Shown: positions 18,606 through 26,112 of the stretch, piece after piece
Position numbering within the stretch: position 1 is the first letter of the stretch
Layout of the letters: each line of letters opens with the position of its first letter
From: Stappia sp. WLB 29
GTDB lineage: Bacteria; Pseudomonadota; Alphaproteobacteria; Rhizobiales; Stappiaceae
Direction of reading: 5' to 3'
Length of the DNA stretch: 64,000 nucleotides
Assembly: GCF_023507705.1 (NCBI RefSeq)
Contig: NZ_JALBGD010000001.1
Location: 620,001 to 684,000, forward strand
Made by a program: the position numbers and the translations under genes
The notes under the pieces: generated by a model
Told to the model about the DNA's origin: nothing
The model's database searches: none
Seen by the model: only the letters and a program-made list of their open reading frames with translations

Positions 18606-19637
18606 CTACCCGCCCTTGCGGCGGCCGACGAGGAACGGCATCGCGGCGAACAGCGCCAGGATGCGGAAGACGTGGTGCGTCGCCACATAAACCGGGTCGT
18701 AGCCGAGCGCCAGCGCCATCGACGACATCGCCTCGACGCCGCCCGGCGCGAAGGCCACCCACACCTGCCCGAACGGCAGCCCGGTCATCGCGGCGGTGAG
18801 CCAGCTCGCCGCCGCGGAGATCGCCAGCGCCACGCTGGCCGCGGCCAGGCCGGCAACGCCGAGCAGCCGCAATTCCTTGGCCGTCAACCCGCTGAACCTT
18901 GCGCCGATCACCGCGCCCGTCACTGTGAACCCCAGGAAGGTCAGCGGCAGCGGCAGCCGTCCCTCGACGAGGCCGGCCGCATGGGTCGCGGCGCTCAGGA
19001 TCAGGCCGGCGAGCAGATAGGCCGCCGGCACGCCGAGCCGGTCGCCGGCCAGCCCGGCCGCGAACCCGGCGATCAGGATCACCACCGCCGCGCCGTAGCC
19101 GATCTCGCCCATCGTCGTCAGCACCGCCCCGCTCGGCGCACTGTCGATCAGCGCGATCACCGGCGGCAGCAGCACCGTGATCACCAGCAACCGCAGGCTC
19201 TGCAGCACCATGACGGCGCGCAGGTCGCCGACGCCGGAGGCGGCCAGCGACAGGCAGTAGCTCAGCGCGCCGGGCGAGGTGGCGAGCCGCGCGGTCGCCG
19301 CATCGAGGCCGTAGCCGCGCTGCAGGATCGCGCCCGACACCGCCATCACCGCGGCGATGGTCGCCGCCAGCATGGCAAGGCTCACCGGCCATTTGGCGAT
19401 GTCGGAGAGAAAATGCGGCGTGACCCCGGCTCCCAGGGTCACGCCGATCACCAGGAAGGCGCAGTTGCGCAACAGGCCCGGCACGGCGGGCGCAAGGCCC
19501 AGCATCGCGGCGAGCGTCACCGCGACGGTGCTGCCGATCAGCGCGGCGGCGGGCAGCCCTGCCAGCGTCGCCGCTCCCGCACCGGCAAGCCCGGCCGCGA
19601 GGGCGACGGCAAGGCTGCGCCACCGCATGCCCGTCAC
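18606..19637 (-). CDS. AbrB-family membrane transporter
   Basis: 343-residue protein with about ten hydrophobic helices in two repeats (PF05145 'transition-state regulator AbrB' transporter family, formerly 'ammonia monooxygenase'). Signs are SPGALSYCLSLAASGVGDLRAVMVLQSLRLL and FAPGGVEAMSSMALALGYDPVYVATHHVFRIL. Function is poorly known; related proteins are proposed organic-acid or aromatic efflux/uptake permeases. The GTG start overlaps the tctA stop (GTGA), so it is the last gene of the tct operon and may serve the same substrate. ATG 19628 is an alternative start. Confidence 0.82.
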   Translation of the reverse strand: MTGMRWRSLAVALAAGLAGAGAATLAGLPAAALIGSTVAVTLAAMLGLAPAVPGLLRNCAFLVIGVTLGAGVTPHFLSDIAKWPVSLAMLAATIAAVMAVSGAILQRGYGLDAATARLATSPGALSYCLSLAASGVGDLRAVMVLQSLRLLVITVLLPPVIALIDSAPSGAVLTTMGEIGYGAAVVILIAGFAAGLAGDRLGVPAAYLLAGLILSAATHAAGLVEGRLPLPLTFLGFTVTGAVIGARFSGLTAKELRLLGVAGLAAASVALAISAAASWLTAAMTGLPFGQVWVAFAPGGVEAMSSMALALGYDPVYVATHHVFRILALFAAMPFLVGRRKGG

Positions 19638-21136
19638 GCCTCGGCCACCTTCTTCTTGCGACGGCCGAGCCAGATCGGCACGACCACCACGACGGCCGCC
19701 AGTACGTAGAGTACGATGGCATTGCCGGAGTCGAGGAGGATCGACCAGTCGCCGCCCGAGATCGACAGGGCGCGGCGCAGGTTGTTCTCGAACAGGCTGC
19801 CCAGCACGAAACCGAGGATCACCGGGGCCAGCGAGAAGTCCAGCTTGCGCAGGACCCAGCCGACCACGCCGAGCAGCGTGATCATATAGAGGTCATGCGG
19901 GTTGCTGACGACCGAGTAGACGCCGATGAAGGCCAGCACCGCGATCATCGGCGTCAGGTACTGCTGCGGCACCGTCAGCAACCGGGCGAACAGCCCGACC
20001 AGCGGCAGGTTGATGACCAGCAGCGCGACGTTGCCGATATACATCGACGCGATCAGGCCCCAGGCGATCTCGGGTCGCTGCTCGAACATCAGCGGCCCCG
20101 GCGTGACGTTGAACAGCAGCAGGGCGCCGAGCAGGATCGCCGTCGTTCCCGAGCCGGGAATGCCGAGCGTCAGCATCGGCACCATCGCGCCGCCCGCGGC
20201 CGCGTTGTTGGCCGATTCCGGTGCGGCGAGGCCCCGGATGTCGCCCTTGCCGAAGTTGTCCGAATCCTTGGCCAGGCGCTTCTCCGTGCCATAGGCGACC
20301 GCGGAGGCGACCGAGGCGCCGGTGCCCGGCAGGATGCCGATGAAGAAGCCGATCACCGCGGAGCGCAGGATCGTCCACCTGGTGAGCGCAAGGTCCTTCA
20401 TCGAGACGAAGCTCTTGTCGAGCGCCAGCGGCTTCAGCTTGCCGGTGACCTGCTGCTCGACGAGATGGATCAGCTCCGCCATGCCGAACAGGCCGATGAC
20501 CACCACGAGAAAGTCGATGCCGGCGAGGATGTCGGGAATGCCGAACGTGTAGCGGGCAACGCCCGTATTGGCGTCGATGCCGATCGAGGCCAGCATCAGC
20601 CCGAGCAACGCCGCCAGCAGCGTCTTCACCGCATTGGATCCGACCAGGGAAGCGAGGGTCGCGAAGGCGAAGACCATCAGCGCAACATAGTCGGACGGCG
20701 AGAAGGTCACCGCATAGGCGGCGAGCATGGGCCCGAACAGCGTCACCAGAATCACCGAGAAGGTCCCGCCGACGAAGGACGCCACCGCCGACAGCGACAG
20801 GGCACGTCCCGCCTCGCCGCGCTTGGCCATCGGGTTGCCGTCCAGCGTCGTCATCACCGCGCTGGCGTCGCCGGGCACGTTGAGCAGGATCGACGAGATG
20901 CGCCCTCCGTACTCGGCGCCGTAATAGATGCCCGCGAGCAGGATCAGCGCCGATTCCGGCGGAAAGCCGAGGCTGTAGGCGATGGGCAGCAGGATCGCCA
21001 CGCCGTTGATCGGACCGATGCCGGGAAGCGCGCCGATGAGCGTTCCGGCAAAGCAGCCGATCAGGACGAGAAACAGGTTGAACGGATCCAAGGCGACGGC
21101 GAAGCCCGCCGAAAGCCCGCTGAAGACGGCATCCAT
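19634..21136 (-). CDS. tctA: Tripartite tricarboxylate transporter, large membrane subunit TctA
   Basis: 500-residue permease with about twelve hydrophobic segments. Family landmarks are GCFAGTLIGALPGIGPINGVAIL near residue 35, YYGAEYGGRISSILLNVPGDA near 75, GILPGTGASVASAVAYG and the ESANNAAAGG motif that closes the transport core. It moves a carboxylate delivered by TctC across the inner membrane, driven by an ion gradient. Follows tctB by 7 bases and overlaps the AbrB-family gene. Confidence 0.95.
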   Translation of the reverse strand: MDAVFSGLSAGFAVALDPFNLFLVLIGCFAGTLIGALPGIGPINGVAILLPIAYSLGFPPESALILLAGIYYGAEYGGRISSILLNVPGDASAVMTTLDGNPMAKRGEAGRALSLSAVASFVGGTFSVILVTLFGPMLAAYAVTFSPSDYVALMVFAFATLASLVGSNAVKTLLAALLGLMLASIGIDANTGVARYTFGIPDILAGIDFLVVVIGLFGMAELIHLVEQQVTGKLKPLALDKSFVSMKDLALTRWTILRSAVIGFFIGILPGTGASVASAVAYGTEKRLAKDSDNFGKGDIRGLAAPESANNAAAGGAMVPMLTLGIPGSGTTAILLGALLLFNVTPGPLMFEQRPEIAWGLIASMYIGNVALLVINLPLVGLFARLLTVPQQYLTPMIAVLAFIGVYSVVSNPHDLYMITLLGVVGWVLRKLDFSLAPVILGFVLGSLFENNLRRALSISGGDWSILLDSGNAIVLYVLAAVVVVVPIWLGRRKKKVAEA

Positions 21137-21143
21137 GGGGACC

Positions 21144-21584
21144 TCACGTAAGGAATGCGGTCAGACCGACCGGCAGGTTGAGTTCCAGCAACGTCGTGCA
21201 GACGAAAAACCCGACGATGCCGGCCGCGGCACCGAACAGAACCGCGCGCAACGGCGCGGCGCCCAGCATCCAGGCAAGCGTGGCGCAGAACAGCCATGTC
21301 GACAGGATGAAGCCCAGCCGTTCGAACAGGTATCCGTAGGCGAAAAGCAGAACCACCACGACGGCGAGACGCCCAAGGGTTTTGGTCGAGGTGCCGAGTT
21401 GCGCGACATCCGGACGGATGACGAGGTAGAGGGCACACGCCATGGCGAAAATTCCCAGGATGCGTGGCCAGCTCTCGGGTCCCAGCGGGTCGTACTGGAA
21501 CGGCGCCTCGATGACTGTGAAGGCGATATAGGTATAGAGCAGCGCGATCACGAGGATCGCACCCGCAAAGACGCGGTCTGCCAT
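21144..21584 (-). CDS. tctB: Tripartite tricarboxylate transporter, small membrane subunit TctB
   Basis: 146 residues with four hydrophobic helices, the usual TctB size and topology, e.g. VFAGAILVIALLYTYIAF at the start and AVVVVLLFAYGYLFERLGF in the middle. PLGPESWPRILG is the typical loop. Forms the membrane complex with TctA. Confidence 0.92.
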   Translation of the reverse strand: MADRVFAGAILVIALLYTYIAFTVIEAPFQYDPLGPESWPRILGIFAMACALYLVIRPDVAQLGTSTKTLGRLAVVVVLLFAYGYLFERLGFILSTWLFCATLAWMLGAAPLRAVLFGAAAGIVGFFVCTTLLELNLPVGLTAFLT

Positions 21585-21699: not shown

Positions 21700-22668
21700 T
21701 TACTGGATCAGGCCGGCTTCGCGGGCGATCTCGCGCAGGCGCGCGATGCGCTGCTTGATCGACTCGTCGAGTTCCGCACCGGCGAGGTTCAGCGGCATAA
21801 GGCCCTTTTCCTTCTGCAGCTTGGCGAACTCCTCGCTGGCGAAGGCGTTCTGGAACTTCTCGACCCAGGCGTTGTAGGCCTCGTCCGAAACGTTCTTGCC
21901 CATGTAGTAGCCGCGCAGGATGGTCCACTCGGCATCGACACCCAGCTCCTTGGCGGTCGGGATGTCGGCGAAGGGCTCCTCCAGCCGCTCGTCGGACATC
22001 ACGGCCAGGATGCGCAGCTTGCCGGTGCCGATATGGGAGACCATCTCGCCGACGTCGCCCATATAGACCTGGATGCTGCCGCCCAGCAGGGCCGCGATGG
22101 ACTCGCCGCCGCCGTCGAAGGCGACATAGCGCATCTTCTTCGGATCCTGATCGATGGCCCGCAGCAGCAGCGCGCCCTTCATCCAGTCCTGCGAACCGAC
22201 CGAGCCGCCGGCGCCGAAGACGACGGACGAGACGTCGGCCTTCACCGCGTCCATCAGGTCGGACAGCTTCTCGAACGGGCTGTCGGCGCGCACCACGACC
22301 GCGCCGAAGTCGGCGCCGGCGGTGGCCAGGAACCGCACGTCGTTCTCCGTCCACTGGCCGTACTTGCCGGTGGCGATGTTGAGCAGCGAGCCGGACGAGA
22401 ACGCGACGATGGCGTTCGGGTCGTCGGTGCGGGTGGTGTTGAACAGGTTGATGGCCACCGCGCCGATGCCGCCCGGCATGAAGCTGACCTGCATCGGCGT
22501 GTCGAACTGGCCCTGCAGGCCGGTCTGGGCGACGCGGCAGGTCAGGTCGAAGCCGCCGCCCGGCTGCGCCGGTGCGATGCACTCGGGCCTGTTGATCTCG
22601 GCGGCGAATACAGGGGTGGCGAGGCCGGCGGCGATCAGCGCCGCGGCCGCGGTCTTGAAGAGTTTCAT
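21700..22668 (-). CDS. tctC: Tripartite tricarboxylate transporter, periplasmic binding protein TctC
   Basis: 322 residues starting MKLFKTAAAALIAAGLATPVFA (signal peptide about 1-22), with a GGGAGGA ribosome site. The Bug/TctC fold is shown by CIAPAQPGGGFDLTCR (the PGG loop that holds the carboxylate), FMPGGIGAVAINLF and GAGGSVGSQDWMKGALLL. It captures a di- or tricarboxylate for TctAB. It is divergent from the TctD/TctE-like system, which probably controls it. The exact ligand cannot be read from sequence. Confidence 0.93.
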   Translation of the reverse strand: MKLFKTAAAALIAAGLATPVFAAEINRPECIAPAQPGGGFDLTCRVAQTGLQGQFDTPMQVSFMPGGIGAVAINLFNTTRTDDPNAIVAFSSGSLLNIATGKYGQWTENDVRFLATAGADFGAVVVRADSPFEKLSDLMDAVKADVSSVVFGAGGSVGSQDWMKGALLLRAIDQDPKKMRYVAFDGGGESIAALLGGSIQVYMGDVGEMVSHIGTGKLRILAVMSDERLEEPFADIPTAKELGVDAEWTILRGYYMGKNVSDEAYNAWVEKFQNAFASEEFAKLQKEKGLMPLNLAGAELDESIKQRIARLREIAREAGLIQ

Positions 22669-22746
22669 GTAGTCCTCCCGGTTGTCGCACGGATCGGGCC
22701 GCAGCGGCGGCACCGTCCATGGATCGCACGACACTAGGCCGCGTGG

Positions 22747-22784
22747 CTGACCGGAGCTTGACCCGTCGCTGACGCGACGCTGAC
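22747..22784. promoter_or_regulatory. Four 11-bp-spaced YTGAC direct repeats (TctD-type operator candidate)
   Basis: CTGAC, TTGAC, CTGAC, CTGAC start at 22747, 22758, 22769 and 22780, exactly 11 bases apart, in the 177-base gap between tctC and the response-regulator gene. OmpR-family regulators bind head-to-tail to direct repeats one helical turn apart, so this array is a natural binding site controlling one or both divergent units. Confidence 0.6.
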
Positions 22785-22845
22785 AGGGAACCCTGCGGCA
22801 GCGGTTTTTCTTCCCGCCGCTCACGGCTTGCACTAATCAAGTGGG

Positions 22846-23517
22846 ATGCGGATCGTGCTTGTGGAGGACAACGACGAACTTGCAGAGGCGATCATCGATC
22901 GCTTCCGCGGGGAAGGTCATGCCATCGACCGGGAGGCCGACGGCGAGCAGGCGAGCGAGCTTCTGCGCTACAAGACCTTCGACCTCATCCTGCTGGACGT
23001 GAACCTGCCCGGCCGCAACGGCTTCGAGATTCTCCGCCAGCTCCGCCTCAGCGGCGACCACACGCCCGTCATGCTGCTCACCGCCCGCTCCGAGATCGAC
23101 GACCGCGTCGTCGGGCTGGACGCGGGAGCCGACGACTACATCGTCAAGCCGTTCGACCTGCGCGAGCTGGCCGCCCGCTGCCGGGCGCTGGCCCGCCGCC
23201 GCGCCGGCGAATCCAGCAACCTGTTCATCGCCGGCAACTTCACCTTCGACCGCGCCGCCAAGCGCGCCACCGTCGACGGCCAGGACGTCGACCTGCGCCA
23301 GCGCGAGGTGCAGCTGCTGGAGGTGATGATCGGCAATATCGGTCGCGTCCTGTCCAAGGAGGAGGTCGCCGACAAGCTCTACACCTTCGAGGAAGTGCCG
23401 ACGCTGAACGCCGTCGAGCAGATCATGACGCGGCTGCGGCGCAAGCTGGAGGGCGCGGCCTTCTCCATCCGCACCATCCGCGGCCTCGGCTATATCGCGA
23501 GCGTCCGCGACGAATGA
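22846..23517 (+). CDS. tctD: OmpR-family response regulator, TctD-like
   Basis: 223 residues. The receiver domain (1-115) has the acidic pocket E7/D8, phosphoacceptor D51 (LILLDVNLPG), T/S switch LLTARS and K104 (DYIVKPFD). The C-terminal winged helix (about 125-222) has LRQREVQLLEVMIGNIGRVLSKEEV and RRKLEGAAFSIRTIRGLGYI. Overlaps the kinase gene by 4 bases. The divergent tctC makes control of tricarboxylate uptake the obvious role. Only weak Shine-Dalgarno (GTGGG) precedes the ATG. Confidence 0.92.
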   Translation: MRIVLVEDNDELAEAIIDRFRGEGHAIDREADGEQASELLRYKTFDLILLDVNLPGRNGFEILRQLRLSGDHTPVMLLTARSEIDDRVVGLDAGADDYIVKPFDLRELAARCRALARRRAGESSNLFIAGNFTFDRAAKRATVDGQDVDLRQREVQLLEVMIGNIGRVLSKEEVADKLYTFEEVPTLNAVEQIMTRLRRKLEGAAFSIRTIRGLGYIASVRDE

Positions 23518-24947
23518 CGCTGCCGCCGCCCCTGCCGGAAGCACGCGCCGTGCCCTATTCGCTGCGCCGCCGGCTCACCGTCGGCATGGTCGCGGGCTTC
23601 CTGGCGCTCCTCGTCGTGCTCTCCATCGGCCTTTGGACCTATGCGCGCAATGCCGCCAACCAGACCTACGACCTGCTGCTCGCCGGCTCGGCCATCGCCA
23701 TCCTGGAGCGCATCTCGCCGACGCCCGACGGACTGATCGTCGACATTCCCTCCTCTGCGCTGGAGATCGTCGGCCTTGCCAAGGAAGACCGCGTCTTCTA
23801 CCGCGTCTTCCGCCTCAGCGGCCGCACCCTGACCGGCGAACCGGACCTGCCGCTGCCCCCCGGCGGCGTGCGCGCCGGCGACCAGCCCCGCTTCTTCGAT
23901 GCGCCCTACAGCCGCGAGACCTCCCGCTTCGTGCTGCAGGGCAAGCTGATCATCGAGCCGACCGGCCCGGACTGGATCATGCTGCAGCTCGGCCACACGC
24001 GGCTTGCCCGCGACACCATGCAGATGGACCTCTTTTCCAAGGGGCTGGCCGGCCTCGTCGCCATCGCCGTGCTCGGCCTCGTCTTCATGCGCCTCGGCAT
24101 CAACCGGGCGATGGCCCCGCTCGCCGGCATCGAGGCCGACATCCGCGGCCGCGAGCCCTCCGACATGACCCCGCTCGACGCCAAGCCGCCGCGCGAGGTG
24201 GAGGGGCTGATCGGCGCCATCAACGATTTCATGGGTCGCCTCGTCACCAGCAAGGAGCACGCCCAGTCCTTCATCGCCGATGTCGCCCACCAGATGCGCA
24301 CCTCGCTCGCCGCCCTGCAGGGGCAGTTGCAGCTCGCCGCCGAGCAGGACGAGCCCGAGCGCATGCGCCAGCGGCTGGAGCGGGCCTCCGAACAGGCGAC
24401 CCGCACCATCCGCCTCACCAACCAGCTGCTGTCGCATGCCATGGTCACCCATCGCGGCATCGACGAGCCGGTCGAAAAGATCGACCTGATGCCGCTGATC
24501 CGCACCTCGGTCGAGGAGTTCCTGCGCCATCCGGAGACCGAGGGCATCGACATCGCCGTACTGCACGACGACCTGCCCGCCGGCAGCGCGCTGCTCGTCG
24601 CCGATCCGGTGGCGCTGCGCGAGGCCCTGCGCAACCTGCTCGACAATGCCGCGCGGCACGGGCCGAAGGACATCCGCATCGACATTGGCCTGTCGCGCAC
24701 GCGCATCGACGAGCGCGAGGCCCTGTGCATCTCGCTCGACGACAGCGGCCCCGGTATTCCGGCGGCCGAGCGCGAGAAGGTGCTGGAGCGCTTCTATTCG
24801 CTGAACCGGGCCGGCGGCGGATCCGGCATCGGTCTCAGCATCGTCAACGCGGTGGCGCGCAGCCATGGCGGCCGGCTCGCCCTTGCCGACAGCCGGCTCG
24901 GCGGGCTGCGCGTCGAGCTGGACCTGCCGGTCGACGGACCGGCCTGA
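23514..24947 (+). CDS. tctE: Sensor histidine kinase, TctE-like
   Basis: 477 residues. First membrane segment about 24-44, a periplasmic 2CSK_N-type sensor to about 175, second membrane segment about 180-200, then HisKA and HATPase_c. Phosphoacceptor His is in ADVAHQMRTSLAAL; the usual Pro of the H-box (RTP) is Ser here. N box NLLDNAARHG, G1 DDSGPGIP and G2 GGGSGIGLSIV are intact, so it should be active. Partner of the TctD-like regulator. A periplasmic binding-protein gene follows 82 bases later and may supply the input signal. Confidence 0.92.
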   Translation: MTLPPPLPEARAVPYSLRRRLTVGMVAGFLALLVVLSIGLWTYARNAANQTYDLLLAGSAIAILERISPTPDGLIVDIPSSALEIVGLAKEDRVFYRVFRLSGRTLTGEPDLPLPPGGVRAGDQPRFFDAPYSRETSRFVLQGKLIIEPTGPDWIMLQLGHTRLARDTMQMDLFSKGLAGLVAIAVLGLVFMRLGINRAMAPLAGIEADIRGREPSDMTPLDAKPPREVEGLIGAINDFMGRLVTSKEHAQSFIADVAHQMRTSLAALQGQLQLAAEQDEPERMRQRLERASEQATRTIRLTNQLLSHAMVTHRGIDEPVEKIDLMPLIRTSVEEFLRHPETEGIDIAVLHDDLPAGSALLVADPVALREALRNLLDNAARHGPKDIRIDIGLSRTRIDEREALCISLDDSGPGIPAAEREKVLERFYSLNRAGGGSGIGLSIVNAVARSHGGRLALADSRLGGLRVELDLPVDGPA

Positions 24948-25029
24948 ACGATCGAGACGGGCGACCGGCGCGGCCAAATCAGCGCCGGCACCCATGGGGA
25001 ACGGAAACGAAATCGGGAGGACGACGGGC

Positions 25030-26112
25030 ATGACGCTTGCGACCCTTGCCAGGACACGCCTTGGCGCCCTGCGCCGGATCCGTGCCGCCGTGCTCGGCGC
25101 GGCGGCGCTTTCTCTGGCCGCCGTCGGCCACGCCCGGGCCGAGACGCGGCTCACCATCTACAGCGCCACCGACACGTCGGCCATGACGGAGGTGATCGCC
25201 CGCTTCGAGGCGACCCACCCGGCGGTCAAGGTCGAGTATGTCGAATACAACACCTCCGAACTCTACGAGGCCATCGCCTCGCACAGCCACCTGGTCGACG
25301 TGGTCATCAGCTCCTCGATGGACCTCCAGGCGAAGCTGGTGAACAGCGGCGATGCCTACGCCTTCCGCCCGCCCAATGCCGATGCCCTGCCCGAATGGGC
25401 GCGCTGGCGCGGCGAGCTCTACGGCTTCACCTGGGAGCCGGTGGTGATGGTCTACAACAAGGCGGCCTTCGCCGACCGGCCGCTGCCGCAGACCCGGTCC
25501 GAGCTCGCCGGCATGATCCGCGACGATCCCGATTTCTTTCGCGGCCGCGTCGGCACCTACGACATCCACCTGTCCGGCGTCGGCTACCTCTTCGCCACCC
25601 AGGACGCCCAGCGCGGCTACCAGTTCTCGCGCGTCGCCGAATCCTTCGGCCGCGCCCGCGCCCGCACCTTCTGCTGCACCCGCGAAGTGCTCGACCGGGT
25701 CGCGCGCGGCGAGCTGGTCTACGGTTACAACATGATCGGCTCCTACACGCTCGGCGTGGTCCGGGAGGACGAGCGCATCGGCTACTACCTGCTCGACGAC
25801 TACACGCTGGTGATGAGCCGCACGGCCTTTATCCCCGAAACCGCGCCGAACAAGCGGGCCGCCGTTTCCTTCGTCAATTTTCTCCTGTCGCCGGAGGGCC
25901 AGGCGGCCATTGCCACCTCGCCGGAACTTATCCCCCTTCTGCCCGAGGCGACCATCGCCTCCGGCCACAGCGGCGTTCCGGGTACCGAGGGGCGCTCGCT
26001 GCTGCCCATCCGCCTCGGCACCGGCCTGCTCACCTATCTCGACCGGTTGAAGAAGGAGGCCTTCCTTGCCGACTGGTCGGCGGCGATGCAGGTCGACAGC
26101 GCCTCGCAGTAG
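25030..26112 (+). CDS. Periplasmic substrate-binding protein next to TctDE (iron(III)/AfuA-like class)
   Basis: 360 residues with an N-terminal signal peptide (cleaved near AVGHARAE, about 38) and a type 2 periplasmic-binding fold similar to the Fe(III)/2-aminoethylphosphonate/phosphoglycerate group: ETRLTIYSATDTSAMTEVIARF, GFTWEPVVMVYNKAAF, VNFLLSPEGQAAIA. The ATG at 25030 follows GGGAGGA. No permease or ATPase gene is alongside. Its place directly after the kinase recalls systems such as PgtC, where a binding protein signals to a kinase, so a sensory rather than a transport role is possible. A bidirectional terminator follows. Confidence 0.8.
   Translation: MTLATLARTRLGALRRIRAAVLGAAALSLAAVGHARAETRLTIYSATDTSAMTEVIARFEATHPAVKVEYVEYNTSELYEAIASHSHLVDVVISSSMDLQAKLVNSGDAYAFRPPNADALPEWARWRGELYGFTWEPVVMVYNKAAFADRPLPQTRSELAGMIRDDPDFFRGRVGTYDIHLSGVGYLFATQDAQRGYQFSRVAESFGRARARTFCCTREVLDRVARGELVYGYNMIGSYTLGVVREDERIGYYLLDDYTLVMSRTAFIPETAPNKRAAVSFVNFLLSPEGQAAIATSPELIPLLPEATIASGHSGVPGTEGRSLLPIRLGTGLLTYLDRLKKEAFLADWSAAMQVDSASQ

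Follow-up and report, generated by a model that had tools for sequence, protein, structure and literature searches.

Among the systems closest to the locus analysed here is the pho box of the E. coli pstS promoter, where the phosphate-responsive regulator PhoB recognizes the half-site CTGTCAT and where 11-bp direct repeats of the TGTCA type run toward the gene, the last of them (TGTCAC) lying 10 nt from the hexamer TATTTT. For Pseudomonas aeruginosa, the accessible text of PMC4513871 gives the pho half-site as (T)GTCAT. Longer arrays have been described for PhoP of Streptomyces, a different regulator from a different phylum, which binds four core 11-nt tandem units at pitH2 and glpQ1, with ancillary units at pitH2 and five units at glpQ2 (accessible text of PMC7866108).

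In Salmonella and Pseudomonas, the two-component regulator TctD is linked to a tctCBA-type operon, as is the regulator described below. P. aeruginosa TctD activates opdH and has a motif before both opdHtctCBA and tctD according to the accessible text of PMC4513871, while that of PMC6403454, from another group, reports that TctDE derepresses opdH. In the accessible part of a review (PMC5812351), Salmonella tctCBA is described as repressed upon deletion of tctD, and BctDE-BctC of Bordetella as a two-component system with a tct-type operon and a periplasmic binding protein, in which BctDE activates the operon and the binding protein takes part in signalling; that text describes no array. We likewise found no array of the present kind described for a TctD-type regulator in the accessible parts of the open-licence literature.

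The 64-kb stretch of Stappia sp. WLB 29 DNA analysed here (the window) carries four direct repeats between tctC and a divergently oriented gene for a TctD-like response regulator. Its spacing to the predicted −10 element is the same as at pstS, whereas its half-sites end in G (unit 2 in A) and those of pstS in T or C; what sets the locus apart from the known systems is the number of units and a switch of half-site. We consider it highly probable that the neighbouring regulator binds the array and that the array serves the tctCBA promoter as an activation site of the PhoB type, where we infer binding, phosphorylation, the number of dimers and activation itself.

Sequence and gene context of the four-unit array

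The whole gap between the two genes, 22669-22845, measures 177 bp, and all four units lie within cgcgtggCTGACcggagcTTGACccgtcgCTGACgcgacgCTGACaggga, the letters of 22740-22789. The four YTGAC at an 11-base period that the earlier note had reported are correct to the base and without mismatch (see table for their starts); its claim that they stand exactly one helical turn apart holds for the period and not for the turn, since 11 bp is slightly above the approximately 10.5 bp of DNA. With at most one mismatch, YTGAC-N6-YTGAC-N6-YTGAC matches twice in the window against an expectation of 0.03, both matches being registers of one array. None of 5000 dinucleotide shuffles of the gap reproduced the array or held four evenly spaced copies (periods of 6 to 40) of any 4-mer with at least three different letters, and in the whole 64 kb TGAC is the sole such 4-mer with four copies at a period of 10 or 11. 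The four-unit array is confirmed as real and beyond chance.

On the minus strand, tctC (the predicted target of the array) is followed by tctB, tctA and a gene for an AbrB-family protein. As at OmpR/PhoB-type tandem sites, one half-site is directly repeated at 10-11 bp and a regulator with receiver and winged-helix domains, which we predict from sequence to bind the array, is encoded beside it. The earlier note had spoken of a TctD-like regulator and of the TctD regulon: the regulator is genetically linked to the divergent tctCBA operon and its best NCBIfam model is that of TctD (NF012023 equivalog), but the score is 181.4 bits against a cut-off of 337, for which reason we call it TctD-like and not TctD.

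The regulator is followed by a sensor kinase and a periplasmic solute-binding protein, and this cassette (22846-26112) is kept in all 14 further genomes examined at length, including those where tctCBA is distant or was not found nearby. Its binding protein may serve as a co-sensor for the kinase; in Bordetella (accessible text of PMC5812351), the binding protein that signals is BctC itself, whereas here the binding protein is encoded by a separate third gene.

Table. Coordinates of the array and of neighbouring features in the window
Feature	Position	Strand	Remarks
tctA	19634..21136	-	Pfam TctA PF01970, 1.9e-157
tctB	21144..21584	-	Pfam TctB PF07331, 3e-15
tctC, solute-binding protein of tripartite tricarboxylate transporter	21700..22668	-	Pfam TctC PF03401, 5.4e-18
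Predicted tctC −10, TAGTGT	22731..22736	-	TA at this offset in 9/11 clusters
Spacer from unit 1 to −10, 10 nt	22737..22746	-	Length fixed; sequence 28% mean pairwise identity
Unit 1 (promoter-proximal)	22747..22751	-	GTCAG on tctC strand
Unit 2	22758..22762	-	GTCAA on tctC strand
Unit 3	22769..22773	-	GTCAG on tctC strand
Unit 4 (distal)	22780..22784	-	GTCAG on tctC strand; register common to 11/11 clusters
Predicted regulator −10, TAATCA	22834..22839	+	6 nt before ATG
TctD-like response regulator, OmpR/PhoB type	22846..23517	+	Response_reg + Trans_reg_C
Sensor histidine kinase, TctE-like	23514..24947	+	2CSK_N domain
Periplasmic solute-binding protein, third gene of sensor cassette	25030..26112	+	Pfam SBP_bac_1/8/11

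Conservation of the array and its place in the predicted tctC promoter

Orthologues of the regulator (at least 60% identity, chosen by protein similarity alone) were sought in 87 genomes of the family, 397 of the order and 385 of the class, yielding 26 loci with a patchy distribution that includes 7 of the 87 family genomes and 4 of 14 in the own genus. An 11-bp array of three to six units adjoins the regulator gene in 15 of the 26, and its position is the same in six families (f1, f18, f24, f44, f67 and f156). Most of these arrays have four exact units; L089 has six, L133 six of which two are degenerate, and L088 and L113 three exact ones plus one degenerate. This comparison of orthologous tctC-tctD gaps, on which the proposal of a conserved site could have foundered, instead upheld it.

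The divergent neighbour is tctC in 13 of the 15 array-bearing loci. At L087, the nearest recognised gene on the tctC side of the array lies 0.86 kb away and is the TRAP transporter gene dctP. By eye, a short ORF between array and transporter in this genome (G019, L177:5329-5484) looks like a fragment of tctC, suggesting that the gene may have decayed at this locus. At L113, which lies on a short contig, no tct or TRAP gene was seen among the ORFs examined and the next gene on that side encodes a LysE-type exporter, 1.45 kb away; L131, for which no tctC was found, was left out of the counts. A scan of contigs gave a best match of 44% identity among the best 80 of 595 relatives. Upstream of 8 of those 80 loci (L003-L010, which entered no count), we found two YTGAC 11 bp apart at L006 and, by eye, CTGAC and CTGAA 11 bp apart at L008; the other six have no such 11-bp pair in their upstream DNA.

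To compare promoters, loci were read on the tctC strand as 11 diverged clusters anchored at the last unit, after removal of the same-genus loci L084-L086 (L083 was kept) and of L128, a near-copy of L127 over the promoter; the same alignment work included representatives of two further sets introduced below (12 of the 17 loci with 44-56% identical regulators and 6 of the 11 distal loci). Pairwise identity among the clusters is 94% in unit columns, 41% in the spacers within the array and 24-28% in the flanks. Units 1, 3 and 4 each read GTCAG in 10 of 11 clusters, the exceptions being CTCAG for unit 1 in L088 (where the analyst set the anchor on this degenerate fourth unit) and, in L133, GACAG for unit 3 and ATCAG for unit 4. 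Unit 2, second from the promoter, is GTCAA and not GTCAG in 7 of 11, hence the units may not be interchangeable.

Exactly 10 nt past the last unit, 9 of the 11 clusters (that of the window included) have TA, which occurs at any other offset in at most 2 of 11. The two clusters without it have AATGGT (L088) and CAAGGT (L113), so that the A is present in all 11. The predicted −10 hexamers match TATAAT poorly. A half-site that is oriented to the gene and lies some 10 nt ahead of a −10-like hexamer is the arrangement of PhoB-like activators. The distance from the array to the ATG of the regulator ranges from 36 to 290 nt over 12 loci, and because the spacing to the −10 is fixed at 10 nt, the array appears to be positioned for tctC. 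The earlier note had placed it before the regulator, a wording that we could not sustain given the GTCAG orientation and this fixed spacing; its interpretation as a tandem OmpR-type site stands insofar as the half-sites are tied to the regulator, both in orthologous gaps and at relocated tctC genes (see below). For the regulator, 9 of 11 clusters have a TA hexamer that starts 11-15 nt ahead of the ATG, as against 0-2 of 11 for the other bins; the gene would thus have its own promoter at the start codon, and its mRNA may be leaderless.

Relocation of tctC separates the two candidate targets. All 11 orthologue loci without an array beside the regulator belong to one genus (f44/g76), in whose genomes we found one relative of tctC, 41-43% identical and some 11 kb from the regulator. 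A box of two units, not four, precedes this gene in 11 of 11 genomes, one with a mismatch; by script, it reads GACAG-N6-GTCAG followed after 10 nt by TA in 10, and in the eleventh (L173) the first unit is AACAG. As these are related species of one genus, the 11 cases are not independent events. In G436, the sole such locus annotated between both genes, citrate lyase genes (CitF, CitE-type and CitG) intervene, suggesting that the substrate is citrate or a similar acid. We also observed that TTGACC lies 98-111 nt before the regulator ATG at all 11 of these loci (L116-L126), followed by what looks by eye like a −10 stretch and with no array beside the regulator.

An array in a shared divergent gap could serve the promoter of the regulator itself, and the TctD motif of P. 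aeruginosa indeed also stands before tctD (accessible text of PMC4513871). We regard this as the unlikely reading, with a small yet appreciable chance of being right, although the same DNA may mediate autoregulation in a secondary role: the distance to the regulator varies as given above while that to the −10 on the tctC side does not, and where the genes are apart, the box goes with tctC and not with the regulator (11 of 11, in one genus). For the same contrast in spacing, the array was rejected as the regulator's own −35 element in any main role.

As an activation site for tctCBA, the array would offer its four repeats as half-sites to the adjacent TctD-like regulator, which would contact them through its DNA-binding domain. 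Phosphorylated regulator would fill them head to tail along the tctC strand, most likely in the form of two tandem dimers. The gene-proximal dimer, 10 nt ahead of the tctC −10, would stand in for a −35 element. It would there recruit RNA polymerase to transcribe tctCBA, with the geometry of the E. coli pstS pho box, and the two extra units most likely make binding more cooperative and the response steeper or stronger.

Half-site letters among TctD-type regulators

More distant regulators (44-56% identity) with a divergent tctC have two units in all 17 loci, mostly TGACAG followed by TGTCAG or TGACAG, and TA at offset 10 in 6 of 17, confined to two close clusters; of loci L090-L112 (23 loci), the eight with no divergent tctC detected were left out of this box scan. 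Regulators matching the NCBIfam TctD model came with loci in 30 of 43 cases, 7 of the 30 scoring above the cut-off. These loci share 11-bp direct repeats with the array: 28 of the 30 have units of the TGAAAG type, beginning with T or C, at an 11-bp spacing, and TA comes 10 nt further on in 22 loci and 11 nt further on in 6 (next commonest offset 2, with 8); the two misses, L209 and L210, have no TGAAAG run. By eye, their boxes point to tctC in enterobacterial-looking cases and to other genes in some, and none is tied to a named TctD. They differ from the array here in having TGAAAG and two or three units, against GTCAG and three to six units across the orthologues.

In a tree, the TGWCAG regulators, including this one, lie opposite the best TctD-model matches across a branch with 100/100 support. 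All 26 TGWCAG regulators have Asn at regulator position 188, where all 28 TGAAAG regulators have Asp, Glu or Gln; at position 195, the former have Thr, Ala or Gly and the latter His, Tyr or once Ser. Since both classes split at one branch and thus represent one event, the two residues are candidates only. We lean, by a narrow preference, toward the view that TctD-type regulators of Proteobacteria share one grammar, with a half-site plus 5 nt repeated n times and 10-11 nt to the −10 of the target, in which the letters switched once between TGAAAG and TGWCAG together with the recognition helix and one branch grew to three to six units.

These letters also bear on whether the array is instead a phosphate box of PhoB, or one that combines PhoB and TctD sites as the quadripartite boxes of P. 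aeruginosa do. Its units resemble the pho half-site (TGTCA) with equal period and geometry, and four-part PhoB-TctD boxes have been published (accessible text of PMC4513871). Nevertheless, a PhoB box of either kind seems to us very improbable, as the extended pattern tracks the TctD-like gene across genomes and the box goes with tctC when that gene is relocated. Moreover, the units read GTCAG or GTCAA in the window and end in G or A throughout, the sole exception being a GTCAT in L113, and most sister TctD-type regulators have TGAAAG in this place, which is no pho-box half-site.

Specificity of the site

The earlier note had seen in the repeats a motif for a larger regulon, and the scans of the own genome do not bear this out: with at most one mismatch, the three-unit pattern occurs only at this array (reversed control 1), and a looser pattern of two units plus TA gives one further weak match (reversed control 1). 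A large regulon is therefore not supported in this genome, and with a single strong site we view the array as a local switch.

Across the 397 genomes of the order, exact three units followed by N10 and TA match in 10 (reversed control 1), in 9 of them at the gap between regulator and tctC. The tenth match, in G213, lies outside any such locus and by eye beside an integrase-like ORF, and with weak matches to the locus proteins at chance level (best E 0.01) it was treated as chance. The regulator is present in 25 of the 397 at E of at most 1e-70, and the exact pattern is found in 9 of these 25 versus 1 of the 372 other genomes (Fisher p = 3e-11, kinship ignored); the 16 regulator-bearing genomes missed comprise the 11 with relocated tctC, two with degenerate arrays (G037 and G447) and 3 distant ones. 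Among the family genomes, all 7 with the orthologue and 7 of the 80 others contain exact three-unit matches (reversed control 5 of 87), several of those in the others being plain minisatellites. When one mismatch was allowed in 24 genomes, 23 matched with the reversed control about as frequent, which leaves exact or extended patterns as the informative ones. G323 has a second four-unit 11-bp GTCAG array (C1:413835-413872; L176:3836-3873), 40 kb from its first, which lacks both a TA at offset 10 and any recognisable neighbouring or target gene and was not used.

That the array of the window is itself chance or a minisatellite has a negligible probability in our estimate, even if simple 11-bp tandem repeats containing GTCAG do exist in relatives (e.g., G007, G011 and G084), because its spacers vary between units and genomes while the unit letters are held, none of the 5000 shuffles yielded it and it keeps the same position in six families.

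With this analysis, what began as a curious repeat becomes an operator, open to testing, for a transporter of the tricarboxylate type. It also supplies a short rule that can be scanned for and that picks out the transporter operon probably under the control of a sensor of this kind, even at loci where operon and sensor are separated. A half-site switch with unchanged geometry allows letter choice by OmpR-type regulators to be tested in a compact way and, if the shared grammar proposed above is true, the two classes of regulators would be naturally suited to a paired comparison of half-site selection by an OmpR-type recognition helix.
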